Origin: a virus
Virus record (IMG/VR): IMGVR_UViG_3300010938_000281
Span: 22,957-86,956 of that record
Length of the DNA stretch: 64,000 bases
Strand: one strand, 5' to 3'
Shown: in pieces, positions 2-43,918 of the stretch
Numbering within the stretch: the first letter of the stretch is position 1
How the letters are laid out: every line of letters begins with the position of its first letter
The notes under the pieces: generated by a model
Seen by the model: only the letters and a program-made list of their open reading frames with translations
The model's database searches: none
Told to the model about the DNA's origin: nothing
Program-made: the position numbers and the translations under genes

Positions 2-604
2 AATTTTAGTAACGAAGTTATGCCGGGCACGGTAGAATATTGTTATACAGAGAAAGGGTTTGATTATCACGAGATTCCATATAAGAAAAATATGGTAATT
101 GACGGATATTATCAAAGCGAGAGATATTTTGAGAATTGTAAAAAGTATATTAAATCTCAATTCAAACTTAATGAAGTGTTTACATCGCAAGAGATAGAAC
201 CTAAATCTTGTTTTATTCATGTTAGACGTGGCGACTATAAGAGTCTTACTCAATTTCATCCATTGCAGACATGGGATAACTACTATAAACAAGCAGTACA
301 AAGAATGGATACATATTATCCTTCTAAATACTACATATTCTCTGACGAGATTGAATTAGTTAAAAAAGAATTTCCTGAGAATAAATACTTTGAATATATT
401 AACGGGGGAGATGAAATTACAGATATGTGGCTTATGACTAAGTGTAAATACCAAATTATAGGTAACTCTTCATTCTCATGGTGGGCGGCTTATCTGTCAG
501 AATATAAGGATACCGAGACAATAGCTCCAGCAAACTGGTTCGGTCCAGCATATTACTACCATAACACAAAAGATTTACTTCCCAAAAATTGGAAAACGGT
601 ATGA
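2..604 (+). CDS. Alpha-1,2-fucosyltransferase-like (GT11), 5' end outside the window
   Basis: Likely transfers L-fucose from GDP-L-fucose to a glycan acceptor in the cytoplasm. The GT11 signature HVRRGDY lies about 72 codons into the visible part, followed by a C-terminal block with GNSSFSWWAAYLS, the conserved end of the family. The frame is open to base 1 and GT11 enzymes are usually near 290 residues with the motif near 150, so roughly 80-100 N-terminal residues are missing; the ATG at 20 is probably internal. The stop overlaps the next start (ATGA), so it is translationally coupled to the GT10 gene. Family assignment is strong; linkage and acceptor are inferred. Confidence 0.85.
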   Translation, partial: NFSNEVMPGTVEYCYTEKGFDYHEIPYKKNMVIDGYYQSERYFENCKKYIKSQFKLNEVFTSQEIEPKSCFIHVRRGDYKSLTQFHPLQTWDNYYKQAVQRMDTYYPSKYYIFSDEIELVKKEFPENKYFEYINGGDEITDMWLMTKCKYQIIGNSSFSWWAAYLSEYKDTETIAPANWFGPAYYYHNTKDLLPKNWKTV

Positions 605-1431
605 AAACATTCGGTCTAGTTGATACTGCTTTCGCTCACTGTGACTATTCTGCTCCCGGAATTAAATCTGGGAAGATAAAATGGGATAGGACGTTATACA
701 CGGGTACGGTATTCCATACGCACGAACAGATGTTATCTGGACCTTCTGAATTTAATAGTGGTGTAGATTATGGGTGGTTGTTAGAAAGCCAGGCTATTAT
801 CCCACGCGTTTACAATAAACTTGAAAATAGTCCAGAGTTGGTGAAAAAATTCGCTCGTATATTCACTCATTCGTCAGTATTGCTTCAGAAGTATAAAAAT
901 ACTTATTGGATTCCGGGCGGTTCTATCTGGGTTGGTGGAGAGTACGGCGGCGGCGAAATCAAGATTTATGAAAAAACAAAGTTGTGTTCAATGGTATCAT
1001 CCGACAAGAGGATGTGTAAGCTACACAAGCTTAGAATAGCTGTGGCTGAATTCTTATCTACTCAGAACACTGGAATAGATTTTTATGGGAGTTTGTTTGG
1101 AAAATGGGTTCCTATAATTGAAACACTTAAAGATTACCGATTCTCAATCTGTATCGAAAATTTCGTTGACGACCTTTACTTTACAGAAAAGCTGCTTAAC
1201 TGTTTCGCTACCGGAACCATACCAATTTATTTAGGAGCTAAAAATATAGGGCGTTTGTTTAATACAAAGGGTATGATTTGTTTTGAGCGTCCTGGAGAGC
1301 TACTTGATATTCTTGTAGAAGATATGAATAACAGATTCTACGAAAACGCGAAAGATGCTATAGCTGAGAACTTCGAGCTATGTAAGCGGTTTAGACTGTG
1401 TGAAGATTACATATATGAGACATATCTATAG
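601..1431 (+). CDS. Alpha-1,3/4-fucosyltransferase-like (GT10)
   Basis: A second fucosyltransferase, predicted to use GDP-L-fucose. Residues ~181-212 carry the GT10 donor-binding signature: FSICIENFVDDLYFTEK and then a G-T-I-P-I-Y-L-G segment, matching the family pattern of an F/Y-x-x-x-x-E-N block followed by TEK and G-T-x-P. At 276 residues it is close to short bacterial GT10 catalytic domains. I chose ATG 601, which overlaps the upstream stop, over an upstream TTG. It sits between the GT11 and GDP-fucose synthase genes. The fold call is firm; linkage and acceptor cannot be read from sequence. Confidence 0.85.
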   Translation: MKTFGLVDTAFAHCDYSAPGIKSGKIKWDRTLYTGTVFHTHEQMLSGPSEFNSGVDYGWLLESQAIIPRVYNKLENSPELVKKFARIFTHSSVLLQKYKNTYWIPGGSIWVGGEYGGGEIKIYEKTKLCSMVSSDKRMCKLHKLRIAVAEFLSTQNTGIDFYGSLFGKWVPIIETLKDYRFSICIENFVDDLYFTEKLLNCFATGTIPIYLGAKNIGRLFNTKGMICFERPGELLDILVEDMNNRFYENAKDAIAENFELCKRFRLCEDYIYETYL

Positions 1432-1440
1432 GGGATTTAT

Positions 1441-2376
1441 ATGAGGGTTTTAATTACTGGCGCTAACGGAATGCTGGGGCGCGCTCTACAAAGAGCTTTC
1501 CTAAAAGAACCAAAGTTTGAGGTTATTCAGTTTGGAAGATGTCACGCTGACCTTAGTACGTTTGACGGTATGGTTAAATTTAACGAGTTTATTAAGCGTT
1601 GCGACCCGTGGTGGGTTATACACACAGCTTCTATAGTTGGAGGTATAGAAATGAACAACCAATATCCATATACCTTTAATATGAAGAACACCCTTATTAA
1701 CGCTGGTGTTGTAGATAGTTGTGTACGCAACAATATACCAAGATTTTTAGGCATTTTAAGTGTTTGTTGTTACGGCGACGGATTCTCACAAGAAGATTTT
1801 CCTCTTACGGAAGATAGGCTCTTTGAGCGAGAACCACACAAAACAAATGCCGGATATGCTTATTCTAAGAGAAACCTAGCCCTACATATCTTAACGGCTA
1901 ATCAAGAATTACAAAAGAGATACAACTATATTATATCTTCTAATCTATATGGAGAACAAGACTTCCGTGGTTATAGGGCACACTTCTGTTCTGTAATGAT
2001 AGATAAAGTTATAAACGCTGTTAAGAATAATGAAACCAGGGTACATTTTGCTGGTGATGGTAGGGTTAAGAGACAGTATGTATATGTCGATGACTTGGCT
2101 AGTTGTATAGTTAAACACGTTAAGCTAGACGTTGACGAAAACTACAACTTTGCATCCGAGGAAGAACTATCGGCAGAAGATATGATGAAAATCTTACTCG
2201 ATAGTAAAAAAATTAAACTACAGTACGATTTTAAGAATACTATGGTCGCCGGTCAATTCGTTAGGACTGTAGCCGTCGATAAGGTTAAAAAACTCTTTCC
2301 AGATTTGGAATTTACTCCGTTCTCGGAAGGCGTGGTAAGGGTATATGATAAGTGGTTTGCCGAGGAACAAATATGA
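1441..2376 (+). CDS. fcl: GDP-L-fucose synthase (GDP-4-keto-6-deoxymannose epimerase/reductase)
   Basis: Short-chain dehydrogenase/reductase of the Fcl/WcaG type: converts GDP-4-keto-6-deoxy-D-mannose to GDP-L-fucose with NADPH. The N-terminal Rossmann motif TGANGMLG is at residues 6-13. Downstream are a SVCCYG serine segment and the YxxxK catalytic pair in YAYSKRNLA, then SSNLYGEQDFRG typical of the subfamily. At 311 residues it is full length. It follows the GT10 gene by 9 bases with a purine-rich RBS, and its stop overlaps the next start. Its substrate would come from the dehydratase encoded at 41551-42678. A colitose-type synthase is an alternative, but the two fucosyltransferases favour fucose. 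Confidence 0.88.
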   Translation: MRVLITGANGMLGRALQRAFLKEPKFEVIQFGRCHADLSTFDGMVKFNEFIKRCDPWWVIHTASIVGGIEMNNQYPYTFNMKNTLINAGVVDSCVRNNIPRFLGILSVCCYGDGFSQEDFPLTEDRLFEREPHKTNAGYAYSKRNLALHILTANQELQKRYNYIISSNLYGEQDFRGYRAHFCSVMIDKVINAVKNNETRVHFAGDGRVKRQYVYVDDLASCIVKHVKLDVDENYNFASEEELSAEDMMKILLDSKKIKLQYDFKNTMVAGQFVRTVAVDKVKKLFPDLEFTPFSEGVVRVYDKWFAEEQI

Positions 2377-2852
2377 AACTAGGTATATTTTTACCGTCGT
2401 TAGGATACAATCAAAACGCAATTCAGGCTATAAGTAGTGTGAATACTTTGATAGGTATTGATAATACTATATACCCGACACTTTTCTATAAACGTATTGA
2501 CGCTTTTAGGCTTAGACCTAAAACTATCGCTACAACATTTGATAAAATATATCAGTATGATGGTCACTTGATTACTACTAACCTAGATACAACATATATA
2601 GCTTTACAGTGTAATAGATTAAAGTCAATTAACTTTTATGTATCAGAACTAGAGTGGACTCGTAGAATAGGGAACTATCTATCAAATAGTTCAATCTATA
2701 GAAATAAAAATGTAAACTTAATCTGTCCAAGTGCAGAATATGCCGTAGCATTAGATAATTACTGCGGTGTTAAGGTTCAAGATATTATCACAGGATTTAA
2801 CATCTATGAAATCGTTACTAGAATTCGCGCCAGAAATACGCAAAATGTATGA
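2373..2852 (+). CDS. Short glycosyltransferase-like protein, possibly truncated
   Basis: 159 residues starting at ATG 2373 (RBS GAGG), overlapping the fcl stop. The N-terminus, MKLGIFLPSLGYNQ, resembles the first strand of GT-B glycosyltransferases. The rest resembles an N-terminal half-domain and lacks the C-terminal nucleotide-sugar domain. The last 47 bases overlap the start of the endonuclease gene, so the endonuclease may have cut a longer glycosyltransferase short. Function is inferred mainly from context in the fucosylation cluster; it may be a complete small protein of unknown function. Confidence 0.4.
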   Translation: MKLGIFLPSLGYNQNAIQAISSVNTLIGIDNTIYPTLFYKRIDAFRLRPKTIATTFDKIYQYDGHLITTNLDTTYIALQCNRLKSINFYVSELEWTRRIGNYLSNSSIYRNKNVNLICPSAEYAVALDNYCGVKVQDIITGFNIYEIVTRIRARNTQNV

Positions 2853-6583: not shown

Positions 6584-7198
6584 CTAGAGGTATTCGAGTG
6601 AAATCCATAAACCGTTCAAAGTTTTACTTCCGATGCTGTCTGGACTTTGACTAATAGCCATATACCAGTCGTGTTGCATAGCGGATACGGTGCTATTAGA
6701 ACCGTTACCGGCAAAAAATCCACTAGGTCCAGGGCTTGGACATAGGCTTGCAACAACAGAGCTACCAGCAGGAGTAATCCACGAAGTATCTCCGGAGCCG
6801 TTGTTATTTTGTATAGTATCAATATGGATTAACTGAGCAAACTTAGTTGTAACACCCGAAGCTGGATTGTTAATATTGCTTCTATCGTAGATATAAGCTT
6901 TAACATTCTGAGTCTTAACAGCGGAACCGTGTGTGAATCTAACATTAAGTGTAGCATACATATTAGGAATTTGTGTAAGCCAGACACCAGACGTAGCAGA
7001 GTTAATAATACCACTGTTTACATTTTGATATTTAAGATTGTTAACTTGCGCACCCTGAGCCGTACCATTACCATTAGTAATAAATGTGGTATCTTGGTAT
7101 TCGCCTACATTAACAGAAACACCAAAACCATTCCCATAAAAGCCCAAGCCTGAGCCGTTTAGGTTGATTGTATTGGCATAAAAGTCGATTTGAGCCAT
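6584..7198 (-). CDS. Virion-associated or tail-tip structural protein
   Basis: 204 residues, the last gene of the late block. Gly/Asn/Ser/Thr-rich beta sequence without Cys-rich or catalytic motifs, typical of small phage appendage proteins. It has its own RBS (AAGGAGAG) and late-promoter motif 24 bases upstream, so it is probably transcribed separately at high level. The family is not recognised; a structural role is inferred from composition and position. Confidence 0.55.
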   Translation of the reverse strand: MAQIDFYANTINLNGSGLGFYGNGFGVSVNVGEYQDTTFITNGNGTAQGAQVNNLKYQNVNSGIINSATSGVWLTQIPNMYATLNVRFTHGSAVKTQNVKAYIYDRSNINNPASGVTTKFAQLIHIDTIQNNNGSGDTSWITPAGSSVVASLCPSPGPSGFFAGNGSNSTVSAMQHDWYMAISQSPDSIGSKTLNGLWISLEYL

Positions 7199-7221
7199 TC
7201 TATATTCTCTCCTTGTAGAAA

Positions 7222-7240
7222 CCTCTACTGTATATTACAC
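7222..7240 (-). promoter_or_regulatory. Putative phage late promoter (copy 1)
   Basis: Minus-strand motif GTGTAATATACAGTAGAGG, 24 bases upstream of the 6584-7198 gene, matching the shared late motif found at four other late genes. Confidence 0.5.
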
Positions 7241-7263
7241 TTAAACTAAGTACATTTAGATAT

Positions 7264-7689
7264 TTACCAACGTGGCGGATTATCTGGACAATTACTAGAG
7301 CGCCATCTAGCTTTAACCTCTAAATAGCATCCACATTTCGAACATCTTTGTTCTGAAGCTATAAATAAAGGACATGATTTACAAATATCCATACGTCTAT
7401 TATACTCTGTATCATCTACAGTAGCCATACCATCAACCACATGATTTACAGTTGCACCAGCCGCGTTTCTTATTTGTCTAAATGTTGACGGATATTGCGG
7501 CGGCGGTGGTGTTTCAAGCATAGGCTTATGCGATATATTATCATCCAATATTTCGGGAGGATGACCGGATATAATATCAAGATATTCGCATAGAACATCA
7601 CTATTTTTACAATCGTTAAATTCTTTATCTGTTTTAATCATCTTATGTCTAGCACAATAGCCAGCCATAGAACAAGAACAACTGGTCAT
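7264..7689 (-). CDS. Cysteine-rich protein with C-terminal zinc ribbon
   Basis: 141 residues with a Cys cluster at the N-terminus (MTSCSCSMAGYCARH) and a C-terminal four-Cys ribbon (ICKSCPLF, then CSKCGCYLEVKARW) seen in many phage tail-region proteins. A Pro-rich linker lies between. Its start overlaps the stop of the upstream tail gene by 4 bases. It probably binds zinc; its role in the tail or in assembly is unknown. Confidence 0.6.
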   Translation of the reverse strand: MTSCSCSMAGYCARHKMIKTDKEFNDCKNSDVLCEYLDIISGHPPEILDDNISHKPMLETPPPPQYPSTFRQIRNAAGATVNHVVDGMATVDDTEYNRRMDICKSCPLFIASEQRCSKCGCYLEVKARWRSSNCPDNPPRW

Positions 7690-9383
7690 AATCTAATACC
7701 TTTTTGTTGAAAGATAGCCTCGCGATTAGCTTTAGTAGGTTCTTTCATATAAATATCATCAGTCACTTTTTTACTGGACTCTATAGTTACAACCATATTA
7801 AGTAAACCTGTAGGATAGTCAGATAGTAATATATCGGTCAGATTTTGTGAAATACCAAAAGTGTCATAGACATATCGGTCATATCTACTGTTCATATTTT
7901 CATCCCACATATTGTAGTCATAAAAATCCTTACGAGCACCAAACCAATCATTACCTTGCACCCCTCTGTGTATGATACCGAGATTAGAATACCTCAGTCT
8001 ACTTTCAGCTTGTCCCTGTCCTAAAACCCAATTACCACCAATAGGACCGGGAATTACACTCCTGAATAAAGGATTGCTATTAGCCGACCCGCAACCCAAC
8101 ATATACTGTCCTGTAAGAAAATAATATGGTGCATAATATCTATAACCAATATTAGTTCTTAAATTTAATGAATCTAATGATGAATTGTAGCCGTTTGGAT
8201 TAACCGCGTACATTTTATCAAAATCGCTAGTATCTCTTATGAGATATCCGCCAGAACTTGGTCCTAATGAAGTACCGTATCTGGTGCTGATACTTAACAA
8301 TCCGCCATAACCAGCACAACAGTGAAGTGGTCCAACAATACCACCAGTTGATTTATCTGGAGGAATAGTATGTAAAGAACCTATTACATTTGTGGAATAT
8401 GGGCGTACACCATTCACATAGTTTATATCATTTTTATAGTTAGCACCCAATACAATATTATTGTACTTAAAATCGTGGTCTAGTAAACAATCATTACAAT
8501 AACAATTATAAAGTAGTTTAGATTGACGATAATAATCTACCGGATAAGGATAATCAAATATAATTCCATCACCTGGAGCGTTCCATACATCTATTAAACC
8601 ATAAAACGCAAAACGATTATTTGCTAAAAATTGGAAATTTGATATATTGGTTTTAATATATACTGTACCGTTTATATTGAACAGTGGACCAAGTCTTGAT
8701 TGATAATCAATATCTAACGCGTCCGATTTGTATAACCCACCACCATAATATTTGAACAAAACTTGGTTCTCGTATAATGCTGAATAAGTAGCAAAGCCAG
8801 TACCGCTGGTCACAGATGTATTTGGTAATTGGATGTATAGTAATGGTGGAGTGAAAGCATATCCCAATCCGCCTAAATCAAAGTATTTTCCGCAAGAATC
8901 ATTATAAAATGAAAATGTTACAACACTACTTAAACCAGTAATCAATGATTGCGAACTAAGAATACTTACCTCGCCGTACTTAACACCACACGCATCCAAA
9001 TCTGCGGCAATTTCAAAATTGCACCACTTACTGAAACTGGCCCCATTAAATGTGTTAATAACTATGTCTTGATTGGACGACGCTTTAATAAAAGTTTCAT
9101 CGCTAACATGTGTAACTGTATTACCACTAAAATCTGTTTGAACATACATAATAGTAGTCATTAACGGCATTCTACCACTACGAACATACAAATTATGATT
9201 TTTCGGATGCTCAAAAATATAGTTTGGTAAAATATTATTTTCAGCAATAAGGTATTGACCGTTAGACGTATTAAACCATCCACCAACATTATCGTACATA
9301 GCCGGATTACATATTGGTTGTTCTACTAGAATATCAAAGTCACCATTAAAAAGAAGACCGCTCCCACATCCACATCCAAGCAT
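7686..9383 (-). CDS. Tail-tip structural protein
   Basis: 565 residues, Tyr/Asn/Gly-rich and predicted all-beta, with a Cys/Gly-rich start (MLGCGCGSGLLF). It sits one base after the 273-residue gene and overlaps the Cys-rich gene downstream. Position after the hub suggests a distal tail or receptor-contact protein. No enzymatic motif seen. Confidence 0.55.
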   Translation of the reverse strand: MLGCGCGSGLLFNGDFDILVEQPICNPAMYDNVGGWFNTSNGQYLIAENNILPNYIFEHPKNHNLYVRSGRMPLMTTIMYVQTDFSGNTVTHVSDETFIKASSNQDIVINTFNGASFSKWCNFEIAADLDACGVKYGEVSILSSQSLITGLSSVVTFSFYNDSCGKYFDLGGLGYAFTPPLLYIQLPNTSVTSGTGFATYSALYENQVLFKYYGGGLYKSDALDIDYQSRLGPLFNINGTVYIKTNISNFQFLANNRFAFYGLIDVWNAPGDGIIFDYPYPVDYYRQSKLLYNCYCNDCLLDHDFKYNNIVLGANYKNDINYVNGVRPYSTNVIGSLHTIPPDKSTGGIVGPLHCCAGYGGLLSISTRYGTSLGPSSGGYLIRDTSDFDKMYAVNPNGYNSSLDSLNLRTNIGYRYYAPYYFLTGQYMLGCGSANSNPLFRSVIPGPIGGNWVLGQGQAESRLRYSNLGIIHRGVQGNDWFGARKDFYDYNMWDENMNSRYDRYVYDTFGISQNLTDILLSDYPTGLLNMVVTIESSKKVTDDIYMKEPTKANREAIFQQKGIRL

Positions 9384-10206: not shown

Positions 10207-12626
10207 TATTTAAGAATCTTTCTTGAGATTTCCTTCATTCTTCTTACAAACTCGTATTGAGCTTTCTTGATTTTGAAGAACTTGTCCGCGTAGAATTTTG
10301 CTAGTTTTCCGAACTTTGGACTCCAAGACCTTAACGAATATCTTGTAGTTACACCTTGTACAGCTACACTTACACTAATATCCGTAACGTATGGTCCAGA
10401 TGATAGTAGCTGGTCTCCTAATTGTAACGATGGAATGTCTGGAAACTCTACAGCGCCATATTCTAATCTTTGCATTCTAATACCCATCTCAGAAACTTTA
10501 GCTTGTCCCGCAAGATTCATCAATTGATAAGAACCATAATTCCAAGGAACTAAACCTTCGTCGTGTTCAACCTCTGTTTTTCCAATAGAGGTAGCAATAT
10601 ACCACGGCCCATAAAGCTCTGTCTGTAGCTCTAACGGAATGGCGGCAACGTCTGGTGTAATCGCAGCGGGAACATGGGCAGAAATAGTTGAAGTAAAATT
10701 ATATACGGAACTGGTTAGTTTTTTCCATTCATCTTGTGCTTGTGTAAAGTCTATCACACCGGCTTCAATAGCACTATACAACAGCCACCATATAGGTCCA
10801 GCATTCCATAAATTGTCTCTCTTAAGGGATACCGGCGCTGGTAACGTAATAACAGCACGGGGAGATAAAAACGTTCTATTATTTAAGAATACTAGGTCTG
10901 GTTCTACTTCGCAGCGAATAAATACAGACGTGCCATTTGCTGCAAAAAATATATCATCTGGCGAAATAGCACTAAAGTCATAAAGATAAGCATTATCAAA
11001 TCTTACAAATCCAGCTATCCTATTATCATCCGTTAGCATTGGTAATAGGTCTATTGGTAATAAATTATGCGCTTGAGCGTCTGAAATTTCACCGTCGCTT
11101 AAAAATGCTCCATCGGTAGGAATATGACTATATGAATAACTAATAGTGTCGGGGTCAACCTTTACGGCAACCTCTGGAATCCTAACCATATATTTTCTAC
11201 CATAATAATCCTTAGCATAATCAGTAAGCATCCTATGAAGTTCCTCTATAGGTCTCTTGTCTCCATGATTGCTAAATATAGACATTATTCCATTACCAAT
11301 GCCGGGATTGCTAAACTTAGCAATTCCACCACCAAACAATATACTCATTAAGTCTGGATTTATACCAGAGCCTATACCTATAAGGTACGATTTTAAGAAG
11401 TGTGGATTAGGTTTTCCGTTGTGTCTATATGTAACATTTCCAGGTATTGGCGGTCTATCCCAATAGAATAGATAAGGCCCAAAAGGAACAGCTTTAGATT
11501 GTGGGTCTTTTACAAAGAATGTTGCCGTTTGACCACCGTTGGCTTCTATGATATATTCATTAGACCAATTCATCCATAAGAAAGATACCCAATGTGCATA
11601 TCCGCTCATTGCAGCCATTAACTCGCCAACACTTGTAGGATACCAAGGTCCAACATTCGGAAGATTAACATTTCTTGAATCTAGTACAAATTCGTGATAA
11701 TACCCGGTAAGGTCTGCTATTATTATTCTACCATCAATAGTCTTACCCCAATAAGGCCAAATAGTATTATCATAACCGGTAGTTATATCGTCGTCTTCTC
11801 CCCCGCTTAGGGCTTGATAGTATAGAATAGTTTTTTTACCACCAAACACCATCTTGGCACATATATCGTTAACCATTTCAAAACCGGCCTCTTTAGTAAC
11901 AGCGCCGGGAGTAGTTTGTACGAACTGGTCGATAACACCTATATTTGGAATATTTCTACGAGAAACTGTATACAGCTTAATTATATTGTGTCCGTTCACT
12001 AGCTCTAATCTAAAGAACATTTCACAACCACCAGCCTCACAGATATCTCTAAGAACATCCATCAAGGTCATAGTAGCTCCACCAACCCTATAATCTAGCG
12101 GTAGTAGAGGTAGATTGGTTAGGTCGATACCGAACACGGTACTTTTATACCCTATATTACCAGTATAGATATTCGGGGTAATTGTATTACCCAGAATCAT
12201 AATAGCTTGAACTAATAAGAAATAAGGTATACCATCTTGATTCTTACCAGACCCACCAAACCCGAACGTGTTCTCTAAGAACCCAAAAACATTGATTACA
12301 TTTGGTACGTTTGCAGGACCATAGTAGTCGTCTAGTATAATACTTACACCTTCAAGCAATTGTCGTGGGTCAACTATTGTAACCTCAAATATTGGGTTGC
12401 CAGAAGGCGAGTAGTTTTGTGTCCACTTTTCCAACAGCCCATTAAATTTCCAACCACCAAAATTAAAGTATACAGGCAATCCTACCTCTGGTGGACTGAA
12501 ATTATCATTATCATCTTCGGCGAGAGTTACGTTAACACGACTAACATCGTCGTTCCATCCCATAGAACAATTATAGCTAGCGACTGTTGCGCCTAAAAAC
12601 CTCGCCGGTGTAAAATTTGCTGTCAT
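10206..12626 (-). CDS. Tail hub / baseplate hub-like protein
   Basis: 806 residues. The N-terminal ~110 residues resemble the first barrel of gp27/gpD-like hubs: a split-barrel pattern with NGLLEKWTQNYSPSG and then EVTIVDPRQLLEGVSIIL. A central region has MTLMDVLRDICEAGGCEMFF, the alpha/beta insertion of hub proteins. The C-terminus is basic and helical. Location between the fibre/486-residue genes and the tip genes fits a hub. No lysozyme or peptidase motif is visible. Confidence 0.6.
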   Translation of the reverse strand: MTANFTPARFLGATVASYNCSMGWNDDVSRVNVTLAEDDNDNFSPPEVGLPVYFNFGGWKFNGLLEKWTQNYSPSGNPIFEVTIVDPRQLLEGVSIILDDYYGPANVPNVINVFGFLENTFGFGGSGKNQDGIPYFLLVQAIMILGNTITPNIYTGNIGYKSTVFGIDLTNLPLLPLDYRVGGATMTLMDVLRDICEAGGCEMFFRLELVNGHNIIKLYTVSRRNIPNIGVIDQFVQTTPGAVTKEAGFEMVNDICAKMVFGGKKTILYYQALSGGEDDDITTGYDNTIWPYWGKTIDGRIIIADLTGYYHEFVLDSRNVNLPNVGPWYPTSVGELMAAMSGYAHWVSFLWMNWSNEYIIEANGGQTATFFVKDPQSKAVPFGPYLFYWDRPPIPGNVTYRHNGKPNPHFLKSYLIGIGSGINPDLMSILFGGGIAKFSNPGIGNGIMSIFSNHGDKRPIEELHRMLTDYAKDYYGRKYMVRIPEVAVKVDPDTISYSYSHIPTDGAFLSDGEISDAQAHNLLPIDLLPMLTDDNRIAGFVRFDNAYLYDFSAISPDDIFFAANGTSVFIRCEVEPDLVFLNNRTFLSPRAVITLPAPVSLKRDNLWNAGPIWWLLYSAIEAGVIDFTQAQDEWKKLTSSVYNFTSTISAHVPAAITPDVAAIPLELQTELYGPWYIATSIGKTEVEHDEGLVPWNYGSYQLMNLAGQAKVSEMGIRMQRLEYGAVEFPDIPSLQLGDQLLSSGPYVTDISVSVAVQGVTTRYSLRSWSPKFGKLAKFYADKFFKIKKAQYEFVRRMKEISRKILK

Positions 12627-12634
12627 TTATTATC

Positions 12635-14095
12635 CTAGTTTTCGTATACCCACGTTTTTGTCATTGAGTATCGTCCTGTTCGTGGTTCCCACCTCTCATT
12701 ATTATCATCAAGAAAAGACTTAGAAGCTCCATTATTTATTGGATTTGCCGCAGTTACAATGGAATTAATGGCGGCAGATGTTACACTGTTTATACTTGGT
12801 TTGCCGTTGTTTAGTATATGTTGTATAGTTCCAGTAGGTATAGGAAATACAACCTCTATATCTAAAGTCCTCCTTCTTTCTCTACTTGTACCAACATTCT
12901 GTAGGATTGGACCTTTAGTTCTTCCAAGAATAGGAATGATAGCCACAACATTTGTTCCTAAACTATCATTAATAGAGATTGTTTCTGAAAGAGATGTCGG
13001 AATTATGTTGGATGGGCGGTTATCGAACTCGTATGAATAATTTATAATACCAGTTATAGGATTTTTACCTACGGTTGTAGATAGAGGTATTACGTTCAAA
13101 TTGATACCGGCGTAACTCTGTGCGCGAACTAGAGATTGTCCAGACGCCATTACATATCCAACACTCGCGTTATCATATTTTTGTGTTGTTATAGACATAG
13201 TATTCTGATTACGAACCTCTAAGCCCGTAATAGTTCCTTCGATACCAACATTGGTTAAACCTGTATCTGAAGATTTCCTAATATTGATATCAAAAGTTTC
13301 AAGATAGTTACCGCTTGCTAAAACCCAGTTTTCTGTAACAGAATAAGTCCCGCCAAGTTCTTCAACATTTTCCGAACGTATAAGGTTCAAACCTTTATAG
13401 TAACTAGGTAGATTGTTAACACCTGAGTAGAAAAAATTAGTATCTAGGCCGAGTCTTGGAGTAACCCACGCTTTAGCTTGTTGCCACGCTGGTTTTGATA
13501 GAGCGCCCGCATTATTAAAAAACCTTTTACCTTTAGCTGATACCGTATGTGTTAATCTATATGTTCTGGGAAGCCCTAGACCCTCCGGTGTACCCTCGTC
13601 GGTTTCTATCTGCCAAGATTCACTACCCGATTCAATGTAGGCTTCAAATGTATCTTCGGCGTGTGTTAGGCCGTTTATATAAAGCAGGTCGCTCTCAGCA
13701 GTAATAGTGTATTCAACATGGTTCCACCAGATATCTTTAGTAAAGTTAATCTCTTTGATTCTAGGATTACACTTTATAGGGGCGGTGGCATTTTCACTTT
13801 GCCATTCTAACTGTTGGCCGTCTGTAGCAAATAAACTTCTAATTGCTTCTTCTTTACGCATAATAGATTGAAGTCTAGCGTTTTCGGCTATTGTTTCATC
13901 GGGTGGAAACCCACCAAGGGTCCAGAATACGCCGGAGCTATTAGGCGAACCCATATACGCGAGTGATTTACCAGTAATTGAAATATTCCAAATACTGTTA
14001 AGTTTAGTACCATCATCTGATGTTTGATATATTTTAGTAAACTCTACCAGCGGAGCCGGGATTAGACGTTTACCCCCATACATAACCCTACTCAT
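12635..14095 (-). CDS. Distal tail-type structural protein
   Basis: 486 residues, beta-rich with many W-x-x-x-Y-T-I strands (WWNHVEYTITAESDLLYING). It resembles phage tail proteins built from tube-like or jelly-roll domains and lies directly upstream of the hub in transcription order. Start ATG 14095 overlaps a 25-codon ORF. Probably a distal tail or adaptor protein; not assigned to a family. Confidence 0.55.
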   Translation of the reverse strand: MSRVMYGGKRLIPAPLVEFTKIYQTSDDGTKLNSIWNISITGKSLAYMGSPNSSGVFWTLGGFPPDETIAENARLQSIMRKEEAIRSLFATDGQQLEWQSENATAPIKCNPRIKEINFTKDIWWNHVEYTITAESDLLYINGLTHAEDTFEAYIESGSESWQIETDEGTPEGLGLPRTYRLTHTVSAKGKRFFNNAGALSKPAWQQAKAWVTPRLGLDTNFFYSGVNNLPSYYKGLNLIRSENVEELGGTYSVTENWVLASGNYLETFDINIRKSSDTGLTNVGIEGTITGLEVRNQNTMSITTQKYDNASVGYVMASGQSLVRAQSYAGINLNVIPLSTTVGKNPITGIINYSYEFDNRPSNIIPTSLSETISINDSLGTNVVAIIPILGRTKGPILQNVGTSRERRRTLDIEVVFPIPTGTIQHILNNGKPSINSVTSAAINSIVTAANPINNGASKSFLDDNNERWEPRTGRYSMTKTWVYEN

Positions 14096-14165
14096 AATTA
14101 GTATCCATATATTCGTTATATTGTTCTATAGTATTATATTTGAATCCATCTTTTTCCAGTATCAT
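14088..14165 (-). CDS. Tiny ORF between fibre and tail genes
   Basis: 25 codons (MILEKDGFKYNTIEQYNEYM and on), ending across the next gene's start. A 19-codon ORF (MEFNGILVIYDTGKRWIQI, 14134-14193) overlaps it in another frame; one frameshift would join the two into a single small protein. Either a real micro-gene or the remains of one. Confidence 0.3.
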   Translation of the reverse strand: MILEKDGFKYNTIEQYNEYMDTNYE

Positions 14166-14195
14166 ATATAACTAAAATACCGTTAAATTCCATAA

Positions 14196-17100
14196 TTAGA
14201 AACCGTGTTGATATAGACTCATAACACCGCTAAAATCTCCCAGCGTTGTTGCTACAGATAGATTTAGAGAGTTAGTAACAAAAGTACCACCAAATACATA
14301 CATAGTGGTTCCACTTGTATTTCCATCTGGAACCTTTAATGTTAGAGGTATTTCTTTTTGCGCTCCTTCACCCCTACCAGAGCCAATATAAAGTGTAGTA
14401 CCACTACGATATACACTAGCACCATCAGTAAGACCGTCACCTTGAACAAACAAACTTTGAGGAGAGAAAATTGAACTTGCGTCGTTATACAAGAAGATTG
14501 GTAGAGAATTAAATAACTCTCCATCCCCCTTCAAAAACAATGTGATTACTCCGCTTATATCGCCTTCGTCTTTTACTTTTGTAAATAGTGTAGTTGGTTT
14601 AGATATACCCTTACTGAATGTATATAGAGATATAGCATCTGTAATTTCTGTACTACCAGGAGTATGACCCTTACTATATAATGTCTTACCACTACCAACT
14701 ATAGGTGGAGGGTTAGACTTTGTGAATAATGGTATTCCACCACTATACGGTAGAGGACCACATATGTATAATGTTCTATGGTTGCTATGTCCGCTCGGTC
14801 CAGGTATAAATAATGTTATAGCATTATTTTTTTGATTTGGACCGTTAAATGTGAACAGTGTAATATTACCGGACTGCTTAAGGCCGTTGTAGCAAAACAG
14901 GTCAATACCACTTTGGCGATAATTATTATTTAGATATAAGTCAATACCGCTAGAGTATGTTCCCATACCACTTACATAAAGAATTGTACCTGTAGCTGTA
15001 CTGGTTGGAGGCGTAGACCAGTAGTCGTTTATTACAGAAGCAACGTGAATATCCAGCCTATCAAAGTGACCACTCGCGTTATAAGCAACGCCTTCATCTA
15101 TAGGAGATAGATATTCTAAATCTATTTCCGCTCCGTTCCAACTTGGATGATATACAGTTGTCTTATCATAATATTTAATAGTTGGAGTATAGCTAGAATA
15201 CGCGCCTGAAGCAGGTCTTGTATAATTATCCTGGTATTTATCATAATAGAACAAGGCTGTTTTTAACGGAACTATATACTCGTTCAAGCCAGAACGAATA
15301 CTAAACGTAGCACAAGCTATTTTAGCTCTTACATTTACAAGAGTCTTATATAGTAAGACAGCGCCGGATTCTGGATTATAAGCCGCGTAAGGACCGCCGA
15401 ATACAGATTTAGATAGGTTCTGTGTTATTCTAATTATTGCATTATTGTCTAATAACCCACCAGAATGGTTTGTATATCCATCTATCCACCCCGAAAAATA
15501 TAATGTTCCATCTTCATAGAAGTTGGCCCTGTTACCACTTAAGAAACAATTGAGAGAGATGTTTCTGTATAAACCATTTCCATTACTTCCACTGGTTGTT
15601 GTTAAATATGTCTGACCATACTTAAATACATTCAAACGAGAAGATGGAGGGTCGTAAAAATCAATAGGATTGCGCGTGTTCATCTCTACAAATTCTGTAG
15701 ATGGATAATATACAGAAGAGTAGTAGTTATAATACGTTGCCATATCCGGCCAACTATAGCCACCGTCGGAAAAATGTCTATACCTATCAGATTCATATCT
15801 AATAAAGTTAGTACCGCTAGTAATAGGTTGTATGTATAGATTGTTATCTAACTTTCTAAACAGTTCTTTTCTATCTAGTTTAGCTATGTCGGTCGAAGAT
15901 AGACCGCTATTTATAACCCCTAATTCATAAAATCCTTTAGTTTGCCCTTCTCCCTCCTGTGTACGAAGACTTGATAGTGAATGACTAGCGTTAACGTTAA
16001 GAATAGAAGAGGGAAGAACGTATGAAGGGTCTCCGTTTCCTGGATTAACAATAGTCTGGAAAAAATATCTACTTGCTAAAGGACCGGTTTCTCCAAGTTT
16101 AACAATAGAACCGTCATGTTTCATGTAACGTAGTGCCATACCACCACTATCGTATGTTACAAGAACCCCTCTATATTGATTAGCAGTAGGAAAGCCTCTA
16201 ACATATTTGTGTATCCAAGAATCTCCGTTTACTATAGCCAATCTAGCGTATAACCCACCGTCTTGACCTGGGCCACAAGAAAAATCATTACAAGAAACAA
16301 AAGGAGCATCTATACGCGGATTTCCGGTACTCTCCGGCATTCTATCGCAACCAATCCAAATACTAAAATCGCCAGAAGGTAATCCGTTCCATATACTTCC
16401 ATATGTATGCTGATTATCAAGAATAAACATAGAATCGGCAACGGTTACACCAGCGTCTTGTCCGATATTAGGATTTGGTGGAGCAGAAGCTATACCTTCC
16501 TGAAATCTAGCAGATTTAGAAATAATAGTTGCGTCGGGAGAATTATCTACCATGTTAAGAGTATGAGACGAGGTTCTTGATGGTATAGTATAACTTACAT
16601 AATAGTTAAAGTTAATACTACCGGTAGAAGATGTAAATTGATTAAAATCAAAAAACCAATCTCTAAATATATCATGGCGATATACACCACCAGAATTCAA
16701 ACACATTACAGGGCTTGATTTAGTGCAAGCAAATTGCTCTTGTACTCCTTGTGTATTTGGTAGATATACTGAATTATTAGAAAGTCCATCACCAATAAGT
16801 CTTACATGTGAAGTATTATTAATATCTTGTCCAATTAGAGGGTATGACCCCCTATAATCATAATTTAACAATAAGGTATCTGTTTGTAACCTAATACTTG
16901 GTCCACCAATCATATGTAATGGTAGACCTTTAGGGCACAAATATTCTCCGCTTACTACAACTTCGGCGGCTGAAATGTTAAGAGTTGTTCTTTTATTAAT
17001 AAATCCATTAACGTTATATGTACCATCTTGCCAAATTCCAAACGTAAGATACGCTTTTTCATATTTATCTGTAGAATTGATTCCTATATTATTTTTAATC

Positions 17101-20700: not shown

Positions 20701-23700
20701 AGGACTGCTCTTTAGGGGATGTATCAAGCTGACCTTGTAACTTTGTAATAGTTGATTCTATTGTAGATTTTTGTGATAATAGACCATCTACATTAGCCGG
20801 ACGACCAGCAACTAAATTAACTCTAGCGTTTAGACCGGCAATTCCAGCCTCAAATGATGTTGGTTTATTTCTAAAATTGTTTACTTGCTCTGAAAAATCC
20901 TGCTGTCTGTGCAGAATCTCCAAATCCATATCAACCTTCTTGTTTTGTAGGTCAATTATCTTATTAAAAGCATCGCTAAAAGCTTTTTCTTTTTCGTTTA
21001 GGTGTGTAGCTGCATCGTTAAATATCTTAATAATATGACTCAGCTTTGGACGTACTTGGTCGGCAAACTCTAATGGATAATCAGCGGCATGTCTTAACCT
21101 TTCCTCTTCAACATTCGGACCTAATTTTTCTCTAATTACAGTAAGTAAAGAGTCTAACGCTCTTTTGTCTGTTACTTCAAATCTTTTAGCTATTTTCTCT
21201 ATAGCGTCTTGAGGGTCACCTCTATCAGCACCCTGCTTAATAGCCTCTTTAGCAAACTCGTTAATAATGTTAGGTAACTTATTTACTATTGAAACGGTTC
21301 CGGTTAGCTCGTTAAGTATATCTTCATCTTGGGTAATACCGCGAGCGTTTCTGATTAAATCAGAATCATCACCGCGAACCTGTCCAGAGGCGGCTTTCTC
21401 AAATATCTGAGAGCTTTTAGTATTAACGGAAACACCAGTACCACCAGTAAGCAGAGCAAATTTATTATTTATATTTGTTGTGAATTTTTCTATACCTTCT
21501 GATGCAGCCTGAAACGCTGATGCTAGAGCAACTAATCTATCAATATTCTTAAATTCTAATTCTCTTAGTCTATTACCAAAAGCTATACTATTATTTTCTT
21601 TCTTTTGAGCCTCTATAGTCTTGGTTATACTTTCTTCTAGTAACTTAATTGGTATACCGGCCATAATAGCAAAGTTAAGCAGGGCGCCTTTAGTCTTATT
21701 ATTAAAATCTTCAAGAGTGGCGCTTTCTTTAGCTATATTATCAAAGAACTGCTCTATGACCTGCTCAGAGCTTTTAATCTGCGCCTTGACATCTTTCCTA
21801 TCATCTGGTTGTCCGGATAGAAAAGTTGTAACGGATTCTTCAAGAGTCTGTATTACGTCTTGACTGACCTCTTTTGTAGATAATTTTCCTTTACTAAAAA
21901 GCTCTAGTCCGTTTCCGAATTTTTCTAGTTGTTGATGTATCTTAACAGATTCTAGTTGTTTTTTTGCCGAAGAAAGAGATGTGGTATATCCTATTACAGC
22001 TCCGGTTAAACCACCTAAAGCTGTACCAACACCAGGAATAATACTACCAATAAGCGCTCCTGTAGCAGCACCAGAAAGCGCTCCGCCAGCAGCGGAAAGA
22101 TGTGTAACATCTTCCCCTTTAGCAATTCTATCACTCGCATGAGATGATAGAAATTCTCCACCAACACCAAGACCGGCAGAAGCGAAAGCTCCAGCTTTTG
22201 AGGCAAATCCTAATAGGTTTTTAGCTCCGCGTAGCCGTGCAGCCTTATTAATCCTACTCTCTCTAAGACTATCTTTAGCCTGTATTAAAGCTGCGGCGGC
22301 TGGTGGTAAACCTGTAACGTCAGTAGGTACGAACTTTCCTCTAGTTCCAAAATCTGGTCTAATTATCTTACTACCAAGAGAACTCGACGCTAGTTTAGAA
22401 ACCAACACGTTATTTATTTTACTGCCAACATTACTACTATTAAATGATTGTAGTAAACTACTAAATGTAGTAAACCTAATCGTCAATTGTCCAAGAGTGG
22501 ATGTAAATTTACTAATAGACGAATCAGCGCCGGCTAGGTTGTTACTAAATGTCTGTAGAAATGCGAATCCTGCAAAGTTAGCAAGGGGATTAGATGCGAT
22601 ATCAAGACCCTTACTTACAACACCACCTTTTGCATACTTATTTATCTTATTAAGATTACCATAACCAATTTTCTTTGCGGCATCCTTTGTTACAACAAAC
22701 TCGCCCGGAGTTAATAGTGATGGTACAGTATCTCCATGACCGAAACCGCCTACAGCGCCACCGGTTGCAAATTTCTTGATATTTGGTAAGAATCCTAAAT
22801 TACCAGTCTTATCTCCATAACGAAGACCTTTATTAAACAACGACAACTTAGCCTCGTCAATAGAACCAGCTTTAGCATCAGCCGGATATAGAATTTCGTT
22901 ACCAAACAACCTAGATAGATTTTCCTTAGTTTTACCACCGCCATAAAAGTCAAAAATTTCGTCGTTTTTACCCTTAATAAAATCAGAAGAGGCGCGTCTT
23001 ATGATAGCTTCAAAAAACTGACCTTTAATAGAGGCAATGGCAGAAGTAGAAATAAGTTGGTCTAGGGGTGGCGGTTCTTTTGGGTCTATATGAGTATCTT
23101 GGCCAAGTGTATCTAAGATAACTTCGTCAATACCAGTCTTAAATTTTTGTTCAATACGCTTATCAAATATAGAAGAAGCTTGCTCATTAAAACCAACGAT
23201 AGGAACCTTATAGCGTAGTTTATCTTTTGGGCCTATCCCGTGGTCTTTGAATATTCTAAGTACGGACATTTCGTTTCCGCCCTTACGGGCAATAACCCCG
23301 GCCTCGTTTGTAGATTCTACCTCTGTTTTGTTAGAAACCTTAGGTACAATAAGCGTAAATGGAATTTCGCCAACATTATAGATACCGTCAGCACGAGCTT
23401 GTTGAGCTTCTTTCTTTCTTGTAGCAATAGCAGCCCTTGCAGCCTTACGCATTTGGCTGTTTTGTTCACGTATACTTAGACCCTTGAAACCTTCAGCGTT
23501 AGCAGGTAAGTTTCCTTGTACTGGATGAATAGCATCTTCTGGTTTTACAGGTCCGGTAGGATTAGCGTATTTAGCAACCTTACTCAACCCGGCAGGACCA
23601 AGATTCTTAACAGCCTTTTTGTTAAGTACGAACTCGCCCGGAGTCAACATAGCTGGTACTGTATCACCACTACCATGACCGGGAACCATACCACCACGAG

Positions 23701-40973: not shown

Positions 40974-41245
40974 TTCTTTTTAGCCCTTACTATAGTAAAA
41001 AACATATCGCTATAAAAACGTTCTTTGTTTTTCACAAGTTTGTGATGTTTAGTACATAAGGATATACCATTACCAACACTATATCTCAACTCCCAACTAT
41101 CAGCCCATCTAATAATATGATGTACCTGTAGTTTTTTCTTCCTTCTACATCCAGGATATTGACATTTATGACCGTCTCTACTAAGTACAGCGGCTCTAAA
41201 TTCTTTATATCTATCATCCTTAAAGTTACGCCCTACCATAATCAT
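40970..41245 (-). CDS. Small HNH endonuclease
   Basis: 91 residues (or 89 from a second ATG): RDGHKCQYPGCRRKKKLQVHHI gives the first Cys pair and HH, then GISLCTKHHKL completes the HNH with C and H. HNH proteins beside terminase are common in phages with cohesive ends and aid terminase cleavage; a selfish origin is the alternative. Overlaps the cupin gene end by 20 bases. Confidence 0.8.
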   Translation of the reverse strand: MIMVGRNFKDDRYKEFRAAVLSRDGHKCQYPGCRRKKKLQVHHIIRWADSWELRYSVGNGISLCTKHHKLVKNKERFYSDMFFTIVRAKKK

Positions 41246-41573
41246 CTTCGATTCTTATAATATCGTTCTCATCACATATTCCAACTTGCGTTTCAAATAT
41301 TCTAAGTATTTGTGTATCACTTAGATTTTCTATTCTATGTTTCTTTAATCTTGGAACGTATACTGTATTAGAAGGGTAAATAAACGACTCTGTTTCTCCG
41401 AGGGTTAACTTGCCGCACCCATACTCCATTCCCCACCACTCATCTCTTTTCTCGTGGTATTGTAAGGAAAGTTTTTGTTTTGGTCCAAGAACAATTCTCT
41501 TAATAACCATAGTACCCGAACGGTAGATGTCTACATAAAAGCCCCAAGGTTTATCGACCTGCTTTGATGTCAT
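41226..41573 (-). CDS. ManC/mannose-6-phosphate isomerase type II-like cupin
   Basis: 115 residues from ATG 41573. The whole protein matches the C-terminal isomerase domain of bifunctional ManC enzymes: KPWGFYVDIYRSG, IVLGPKQKLSLQYHEKRDEWW (metal-binding His/Glu region), VYVPRLKKHRIENLSD, and the ending IRIEDDYGR. It may interconvert fructose- and mannose-6-phosphate to feed GDP-mannose synthesis. No GDP-mannose pyrophosphorylase is in the window, so the host enzyme may supply that step. It overlaps the GMD gene end by 23 bases. Confidence 0.8.
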   Translation of the reverse strand: MTSKQVDKPWGFYVDIYRSGTMVIKRIVLGPKQKLSLQYHEKRDEWWGMEYGCGKLTLGETESFIYPSNTVYVPRLKKHRIENLSDTQILRIFETQVGICDENDIIRIEDDYGRA

Positions 41574-42678
41574 TGTATACCATCTCCTCGATAAGTTCAT
41601 CGAATGTAACTGTTGGTTTCCACCCCAACTTAGCTCTAATCATAGAAGAATCGCCAAGCAAATAATCAACCTCCGCCGGACGATAATACGCTTGATTTAT
41701 AGCAACATATTGCTCATAATCTAAACCAATATGACTAAAAGCTTTTTGACAAAACTCTCTAACGGTATGAGTTTCCATTGTAGATACAACGTAGTCTCTT
41801 AGATTGTCTTGTTGCAACGAGAGCCAACAAGCTGTAGCTACATCTTTAGCGTGCCCCCAATCCCTTTTAGCGTCCAAATTTCCAAGATGCAAATATGATT
41901 CCTTACATCTTATAGGTCTACTAAATTTCGTATCAGTCTTTGACTCCATCGGCAGACTCGTAAATCTTGAAAGAGTATAGGTGTCGCCGCCCCACCTAGC
42001 CAACTTGCCGACATGATTCGTAATCTTACGAGTAACAAACTCTTTGCCTCGTCTTGGACTTTCAAAATTAAAGTTTATATTTGAACAACATTTTAATCCA
42101 TATGCTTCGCGGTACAATCTAACCAAATGGTATCCTGCTAATTTAGCAATACCGTATGGTGACTGTGGACAAAACTGAGTTGTTTCATCTTGAAATAATG
42201 AATGCTCAAGAGACATACCTTTAGCATCTAATGTTTCATATCTAATTGGTAGCCCTTGAAATTTATCAATATAGCTTGCGGCACGACCAAACATTTCCGA
42301 GGTAGACATTGTAATAAACTTAGAGTTTAACTTAAGCTGTTTAACTCCCTCTAGGAAGTTTAGAACACCTAAAGTATCAACACTAAATGTGTATCCGGGT
42401 TCGGTAAATGATACATGTACAAACGATTGAGCGGCACAATTGTAAATTTCGTCCGGTCTATATTTACTTAACAATCCAAACACGCAAGACGCGTCTGTTA
42501 TATCTCCACAAGCCAATTCAAGGTCTTCGTTGTTAATAACAGAAGCTAAATTATCCATATTAAGATTAGCATTTCTGCGGTAAACCCCAACAACCCTATA
42601 CTTTTTACTTAAAAGCAACTCAACTAAATAGCTGCCAAGTTGACCATTAACACCAGTAACTAAAGCTAGTTTACTCAT
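41551..42678 (-). CDS. gmd: GDP-mannose 4,6-dehydratase
   Basis: 375 residues, an extended SDR enzyme making GDP-4-keto-6-deoxymannose from GDP-mannose with bound NADP. TGVNGQLGSYLVELL is the nucleotide-binding start; YRRNAN follows. CAAQSFVHVSF, MSTSEMFG (Ser/Thr and Glu of the active site) and SPYGIAKLAGYH (YxxxK) are diagnostic of GMD. Late-region LGWKPTVTFDELIEEM is the usual end. It sits at the top of the late block, four genes before the terminase in transcription, while its partner fcl is in the other operon at 1441-2376. Confidence 0.93.
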   Translation of the reverse strand: MSKLALVTGVNGQLGSYLVELLLSKKYRVVGVYRRNANLNMDNLASVINNEDLELACGDITDASCVFGLLSKYRPDEIYNCAAQSFVHVSFTEPGYTFSVDTLGVLNFLEGVKQLKLNSKFITMSTSEMFGRAASYIDKFQGLPIRYETLDAKGMSLEHSLFQDETTQFCPQSPYGIAKLAGYHLVRLYREAYGLKCCSNINFNFESPRRGKEFVTRKITNHVGKLARWGGDTYTLSRFTSLPMESKTDTKFSRPIRCKESYLHLGNLDAKRDWGHAKDVATACWLSLQQDNLRDYVVSTMETHTVREFCQKAFSHIGLDYEQYVAINQAYYRPAEVDYLLGDSSMIRAKLGWKPTVTFDELIEEMVYNDIKAGR

Positions 42679-42687
42679 ATCCGCCCC

Positions 42688-43479
42688 TTATAAATTATCC
42701 TCTTTTATATTATCACTGTTAAGTACAGGTTGCTCAACAGTTCCATCTACATACTGATGGTAGTCCGACAATCTCTCATACTCTGCATTCATAGCAATTC
42801 TAAATTTCTCTATTTCAATACCTAAACTTTTACGAACATCTGGATTGGTTATCAAAGAAGCAACCCAGTCTTTTAATGTCTCCTTTGACTCCTCAAATCT
42901 CTTTTTTCTTTCGGCACGAGTAGCCTTCATCTCCCTTAACATACTCTGCTTACGTTCCATCAACGTCTGGTTTTCTTTCTGAAAATTAGATATAGCAATA
43001 AAACAGTTGGTAATATCTTCGTTTAGTTTACCAATAGCAATATAATCTTTAGGGTCTTTAGCTTTCTCATCTTTAAGCTGCTGTTGCAGTGTCTCTATAA
43101 GCTCTTGACTAAAATACATTCTCTTCAAAACCCTATTGATTAGAATTTCGGTACGAATTGTATCCATAACCTGTAACCGTTCAGTATGTGTAATGTCCTG
43201 TTTGAACTGATTTATAATCTCTCGCCAGTGATATAGAAATGTTTCTTGCTCATCTTCGCTTAACTGTTGTGTAATCTGTTTCCATTCATGAGTTCTTTTG
43301 ATATTCATTTCCATCTGACGTATTTCGTCAGGAATATGTAACTCACCGACCATCTCTGCAATTTTACTCGTTGGTCTGTTTATATGTTCACTCAGCTCAT
43401 CAATACTCATAGACTTATGATTATCGTTAATAAACTGTATCTCTTCTTTGCTCCATCTTCCAGTCTTATAGTGTTTCAT
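42688..43479 (-). CDS. HTH/SANT-like protein, possible terminase small subunit
   Basis: 263 residues. Residues ~1-55 hold a SANT/Myb-like HTH (RWSKEEIQFINDNHKSMSIDELSEHI). The rest is almost all helix with long Lys/Glu/Gln coiled coil. DNA-binding head plus oligomerising helices near the terminase fits a small terminase; a structural regulator is the alternative. Overlaps the sigma factor gene by 14 bases. Confidence 0.5.
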   Translation of the reverse strand: MKHYKTGRWSKEEIQFINDNHKSMSIDELSEHINRPTSKIAEMVGELHIPDEIRQMEMNIKRTHEWKQITQQLSEDEQETFLYHWREIINQFKQDITHTERLQVMDTIRTEILINRVLKRMYFSQELIETLQQQLKDEKAKDPKDYIAIGKLNEDITNCFIAISNFQKENQTLMERKQSMLREMKATRAERKKRFEESKETLKDWVASLITNPDVRKSLGIEIEKFRIAMNAEYERLSDYHQYVDGTVEQPVLNSDNIKEDNL

Positions 43480-43918
43480 TTACTATCTTTCGTATCTCTT
43501 CGATTATTTTTAGTTTGCGCATTTTTGGAATTTGAATGCCGTGGCGTAATTTCAAATAATCCTTACGAAGCGAGGCTGGCAGCTTTTCATCTATCATTTC
43601 CCAGAACTCATTAGATGTAGTCTGATTATTACCAATAGTTTCATACTCATCTTGTATATTATCTAAGCTACAAGTATCAAGTTCCCTATTGGTAAATTTT
43701 CTAATTACATTTTTTATTCTATTACCAACCGATACAGAAAGAAAATTAAGTATACAACCTGATTCTGGTTTATACTTTTTCATAACTTCTAAACCAATAA
43801 TATATGCTTCTTGAGCTAAATCATCCCCGTCTGCAAATTTATAGTTATACTTCTTTTTTATTCTCTGCATTATCTGCTGTATCGCTTCGAGAAACTCCGT
43901 CTCGTTGTACTTGCTCAT
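43466..43918 (-). CDS. Minimal sigma-70-family RNA polymerase sigma factor
   Basis: 150 residues. FADGDDLAQEAYIIGLEVMK and KYKPESGCILNFLSVSVGNRI form a clear region 2 (core binding and -10 recognition). The C-terminal ~40 residues (PASLRKDYLKLRHGIQIPKM) could be a reduced region 4. The layout recalls T4 gp55, which directs host polymerase to late promoters that lack a -35 box. It is positioned at the head of the late block and is a natural partner for the GTGTA late motif. Confidence 0.8.
   Translation of the reverse strand: MSKYNETEFLEAIQQIMQRIKKKYNYKFADGDDLAQEAYIIGLEVMKKYKPESGCILNFLSVSVGNRIKNVIRKFTNRELDTCSLDNIQDEYETIGNNQTTSNEFWEMIDEKLPASLRKDYLKLRHGIQIPKMRKLKIIEEIRKIVNETL

Follow-up and report, generated by a model that had tools for sequence, protein, structure and literature searches.

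A putative GDP-L-fucose pathway and adjoining GT11 and GT10 fucosyltransferase-like genes in an IMG/VR virus record

A predicted phage route to fucosylated glycan

The phage studied here probably supplies GDP-L-fucose and transfers the fucose with two fucosyltransferases of different families. This reading is drawn from sequence and is given a probability of about 0.72, a figure that covers donor supply and transfer and leaves the acceptor aside. The window, meaning the whole stretch of DNA analyzed (64,000 nucleotides), runs from base 22957 to base 86956 of a linear virus record of 90,511 bases (G000). The initial annotation described a GT11, a GT10 and an Fcl gene in one coupled plus-strand operon, and the family matches (PF01531, PF00852 and those of Fcl) and the gene overlaps bore this out. 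Its further proposal that the phage makes GDP-L-fucose for a glycan was supported and then strengthened by a GMD gene and a PMI domain gene, which it had not included. The features are as follows.

2..604, plus strand: GT11 (alpha-1,2-fucosyltransferase-like), 3' part; PF01531, PHROG 2644 and motifs
601..1431 (stop codon 1429-1431), plus strand: GT10 (alpha-1,3-fucosyltransferase-like), 276 aa; PF00852, PDB sequence and fold matches
1441..2376, plus strand: putative GDP-L-fucose synthase (Fcl/GMER-type SDR), 311 aa; PF01370, NF047922 and 4b8w
2373..2852, plus strand: 159-aa protein, no assigned family; ATGA overlap with Fcl, and after GT10 in the sister contig as well
41226..41600, minus strand: stand-alone type II mannose-6-phosphate isomerase (PMI) cupin domain, 124 aa; PF01050, C-terminal part of TIGR01479
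41551..42678, minus strand: GDP-mannose 4,6-dehydratase (GMD), 375 aa; PF16363, TIGR01472 and 1rpn

Organization of the cluster

GT11, GT10 and Fcl were found as one run on the plus strand at window positions 2-2376. The ATG of GT10 at position 601 overlaps the GT11 stop codon as ATGA, 9 bases separate GT10 from Fcl, and the Fcl stop overlaps the start of the gene for the 159-aa protein as another ATGA, indicating that all four genes are tightly coupled. Profile searches with the 159-aa protein gave no significant match in Pfam, NCBIfam or PHROG. When the sequence upstream of the window was followed, as the initial annotation had advised, it contained the rest of GT11 and a larger glycosyltransferase cluster that extends to record base 15163 and includes three GT4s, an O-methyltransferase (CmcI/rhamnosyl type), two uncharacterized genes, a GT2 and two further uncharacterized genes. 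Replication genes adjoin this cluster.

In GC and GC3 the sugar genes fall within or close to the range set by the terminase gene and the large structural gene, which gives no sign of recent acquisition, and that reading was rejected. In an attempt at host assignment, searches with the terminase and the major capsid candidate found remote relatives or none, and the matches of the terminase were confined to Bacillus and Microcystis phages and others like them, at ~25% identity. A tRNA search of the window found none.

Family assignments of GT11, GT10 and Fcl

The E-values of the family matches described below exclude chance matches for all three proteins. The full GT11 ORF (L003:8823-9557) is 245 aa; its start (G000:22823) precedes the window by 134 bases, which places the first 45 codons outside. 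The full protein matched Pfam PF01531 (E=4e-21, 75.9 bits, above the cut-off of 23.9) and the PHROG 2644 glycosyltransferase family (3e-43). It carries GGLGNQMFKLA, with the N-terminal GGLGNQMF motif, and HVRRGDY. HVRRGDY and NSSFSWW are common to the phage relatives, and H118, R120, R121, D123 and Y124 were invariant in an alignment of nine phage GT11 proteins. On these Pfam and PHROG matches and motifs, the protein is alpha-1,2-fucosyltransferase-like. A sequence search of the PDB with GT11 gave no solved relative. The sole PDB match of the GT11 profile was a short unrelated protein (E=0.004) aligned through helical stretches outside the motifs, which was taken as chance.

GT10 matched Pfam PF00852 (E=5e-9, 36.5 bits, above the curated cut-off of 23.9), a sequence match that covers only the C-terminal donor domain. 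Thirty-five non-redundant IMG/VR phage relatives were collected and aligned with it, and every member of the resulting family of 36 matched PF00852 (E<=0.01). Across the family, three residues (R145, N187 and E196) never vary, and K197 is at least 90% conserved. An alignment with H. pylori FucT matches the EN...TEK stretch, with the EN and TEK positions kept. The initial annotation had called for a structure-based search and had named a better match to non-fucose glycosyltransferases as the result that would count against it. For GT10 the matches were to fucosyltransferases: at E<=1 the family profile matched no more than five PDB sequences, each named as a fucosyltransferase, and a fold search of the PDB with an AlphaFold model (mean pLDDT 94.4, pTM 0.92) ranked eight alpha1,3-fucosyltransferases at the top (human FUT9, Arabidopsis FUT11 and the enzyme of 2nzw/2nzx/2nzy, with H. 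pylori FucT counted among the best), with GT4-type enzymes below them. The model adopts the GT-B fold and carries a GT10 donor site, and its TM-scores to these matches are only ~0.5, suggesting that GT10 departs from them in how its domains are arranged or in its acceptor half.

Fcl matched PF01370 (2.5e-32) and, among NCBIfam models, NF047922 for GDP-L-fucose synthase (3.5e-35, 121.9 bits), the next model scoring 40 bits. The equivalog cut-off of NF047922 is 500 bits, which may be too narrow; since the score falls below it, the protein is named Fcl-type by homology and not by the equivalog rule. The best PDB matches were GDP-fucose synthases. Human-type GMERs, which are proven enzymes, were the closer relatives, and human GDP-L-fucose synthase 4b8w aligned over the full length (E=1.8e-29). 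The Ser-x-Cys, Tyr-x3-Lys and His positions, which we take to be the catalytic residues, align with those of human GMER.

GMD and a PMI domain elsewhere in the window

The GMD and PMI genes lie inside the window, ~39 kb from GT11-GT10-Fcl and on the opposite strand, and the start of PMI overlaps the end of GMD. GMD matched PF16363 (2e-100) and TIGR01472 (1.5e-93, 313.7 bits), the latter leading every other model by 200 bits and still under its equivalog cut-off of 415 bits, with two insertions splitting the match into three stretches. Against 1rpn (E=1.2e-80), the catalytic Thr/Glu of STSEMFG and Tyr/Lys of SPYGxAKL are kept. The PMI domain matched PF01050 (9e-19), and its TIGR01479 match is confined to the C-terminal PMI part of that model.

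Compared with solved GMDs, the two insertions are ~28 and ~32 aa long (residues ~133-161 and ~227-258), the first separating the catalytic TSE motif from the Tyr/Lys motif. Two adjoining genes lie immediately upstream of GMD, also on the minus strand: one that matches ParB weakly (window 42688-43479) and one for a small sigma-70-like protein (window 43466-43918; TIGR02937, E=9e-7).

Proposed pathway and donor sugar

GMD and Fcl constitute the two-step pathway from GDP-mannose to GDP-L-fucose, and characterized members of GT10 and GT11 use GDP-fucose. With GMD, Fcl and the PMI domain, the phage encodes both of these steps and one earlier step. The PMI domain would convert fructose-6-phosphate to mannose-6-phosphate, and host phosphomannomutase and GDP-mannose pyrophosphorylase would carry this to GDP-mannose. 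GMD would then form GDP-4-keto-6-deoxymannose, from which Fcl would produce GDP-L-fucose. GT11 and GT10 are predicted to attach fucose at two separate sites on a glycan. The neighboring GT4 and GT2 enzymes would build the core of this glycan, and the O-methyltransferase possibly caps it. A search of the phage record for NTP_transferase (PF00483) gave no match; a phage-encoded GDP-mannose pyrophosphorylase was rejected on this basis, and GDP-mannose is presumably host-made. Three points weigh against the pathway: the Fcl score well under its equivalog cut-off, the lack of a local Fcl beside GT10 in the sister contig, and the position of GMD and PMI ~39 kb off on the opposite strand, which leaves their coexpression with the cluster an assumption.

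One or both glycosyltransferases may use another donor, such as GDP-D-rhamnose, GDP-mannose or a UDP sugar, if the family match is too remote to fix the donor. The restriction of the GT10 sequence match to the donor domain is consistent with this, as are the presence of Fcl in the fetched flanks of only 6 of 81 GT10 loci and the sister contig, L023, which has no local Fcl. We consider another donor unlikely, however, since the PDB profile matches and the top eight fold matches are all fucosyltransferases, the conserved R145, N187, E196 and K197 and the EN...TEK alignment with H. pylori FucT point the same way, and the same phage encodes GMD and Fcl.

Acceptor of the glycan

Whether such a glycan is destined for the virion or the host surface is a question common to all clusters of this kind. 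We lean slightly toward the virion, one of whose proteins would be glycosylated in the cytoplasm, rather than toward a glycan on the host surface. Searches of the record gave no match to a Polysacc_synt_3 flippase, to Bac_transf (the polyprenyl-phosphate sugar transferase initiator), to GtrA or to the thymidylate synthase/dCMP hydroxymethylase type (PF00303), and hydropathy indicated no membrane-spanning stretch in any protein of the cluster. Together, these results favor cytoplasmic glycosylation, for which a virion protein would be the simplest acceptor. The 90.5-kb linear contig may be incomplete, which makes gene absences weak evidence. Lysogenic O-antigen conversion was rejected, given the missing GtrA match.

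A fucosylated glycan on host surface polysaccharide (LPS or capsule), which might for example block superinfection, is a serious alternative, though we think it somewhat improbable. In cyanophages, comparable sugar genes are usually interpreted as modifying LPS or the cell wall (PMC9602691), and 4 of 80 bacterial genomic GT10 loci have GT11, GMD and Fcl nearby. The missing flippase, initiator and GtrA matches and the lack of membrane-spanning stretches speak against a host surface acceptor, but host machinery could supply the export. It is very improbable that the enzymes decorate hypermodified phage DNA instead of protein or polysaccharide. Replication genes do lie beside the cluster, and some phage glycosyltransferases modify DNA, according to literature cited in PMC12619734. 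The record has no PF00303 match, however. We know of no case of a GT10 or GT11 acting on nucleobases.

Recurrence of the pair and comparison with known systems

The initial annotation had considered phages with two fucosyltransferase families side by side to be few. This did not hold, because the pair recurs both in IMG/VR and in cultured cyanophages. Among 81 GT10-bearing IMG/VR loci, GT11 lies within 10 kb (fetched flanks) in 42, and the two genes are side by side in 11, four of them in the order seen here. These loci are the best GT10 matches with near-duplicates included and, thus, the counts show recurrence and not a population rate. In the phage collection, GT10 relatives were found in 19 records, mostly Synechococcus phages, and profile matches placed GT10 and GT11 together in S-T4, S-SRM01, Sf-CH8, S-SCSM2R and S-SSM7. 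The full GMD-Fcl-GT10-GT11 set was found in S-SRM01 and one IMG/VR contig (L089). The combination is already known in cultured cyanobacterial viruses, and the present phage is a new example, not a new kind of system.

S-SRM01 (MW015081), a 240-kb Kyanoviridae phage, likewise carries GMD, GDP-L-fucose synthase, a GT10-like enzyme and GT11. In that phage, however, all are in one run along with a gene annotated as NodZ fucosyltransferase and two GT11 genes, whereas our phage has GMD and PMI 39 kb from its cluster and on the opposite strand. Synechococcus phage S-SCSM1 resembles our phage in having a monofunctional type II MPI, GMD, Fcl and an alpha-1,2-fucosyltransferase, but its other fucosyltransferases were reported as NodZ and a protein O-fucosyltransferase (PMC9602691). 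Our GT10 search of the phage collection gave no match to S-SCSM1. In the IMG/VR contigs L089, L027, L030, L032 and L011, GT10 and GT11 overlap or abut as they do here, but GT10 identity is roughly 37-46%. The order GT11 then GT10 is shared by L027, L030 and L032, and in L089 a single run contains both GMD-Fcl and GT10-GT11. An Fcl search of the L027, L030, L032 and L011 records gave no match. Chlorovirus PBCV-1 is a further parallel for virus-encoded GDP-L-fucose synthesis feeding a virus-built glycan: recombinant chlorovirus GMD and GMER yielded GDP-L-fucose, and fucose is present in the capsid glycans (PMC5408694). PBCV-1 differs in being a eukaryotic algal virus for which activity and capsid glycan have been demonstrated by experiment, in contrast to the predictions made here.

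The closest sister contig is L023, a 29.8-kb IMG/VR contig that keeps, in order, the three GT4s, the GT2, four uncharacterized genes, GT10 and the 159-aa gene. At the GT11 position it has a Methyltransf_24 gene for a methyltransferase, and no Fcl lies between GT10 and the 159-aa gene, indicating that GT10 is not always paired with a local Fcl. This difference suggests cassette exchange of terminal-sugar genes that are interchangeable. Besides the methyltransferase gene in the place of GT11 (L023:9256-9807), the contig has a P-loop kinase-like gene (L023:3004-3474) without a counterpart in the cluster of the window.

These comparisons would extend phage-encoded GDP-fucose synthesis with a GT10-GT11 pair to a phage unlike the T4-like cyanophages, and the cluster with GMD and PMI offers a compact, testable set of five enzymes. 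A broader picture, which we offer tentatively and at less than even odds, is of a tailed phage outside the T4-like cyanophages that decorates its own virion proteins with a complex glycan, fucosylated and possibly methylated, through a largely self-encoded pathway, as chloroviruses do. Its terminal sugars would be swapped by gene cassettes between sister phages, with GT11 and Fcl here and the methyltransferase in L023.

A split DNA polymerase upstream of the window

Upstream of the window, the coding sequence for a DnaE-type DNA polymerase III alpha is broken into pieces (L002:5226-6608, 7493-8353, 12000-12971 and 13164-14276), and two of the breaks look like split inteins. The first piece has an N-intein-like end at CFTPDSRV and the third at CISPNTVV (weak Hint and Intein_splicing matches), and the C-intein-like starts of the pieces that follow them end in HNS and SNS. 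The second and third pieces are separated by ~3.6 kb of other genes, and the first break holds an endonuclease-like ORF (6670-7530) that is TnsA-like.
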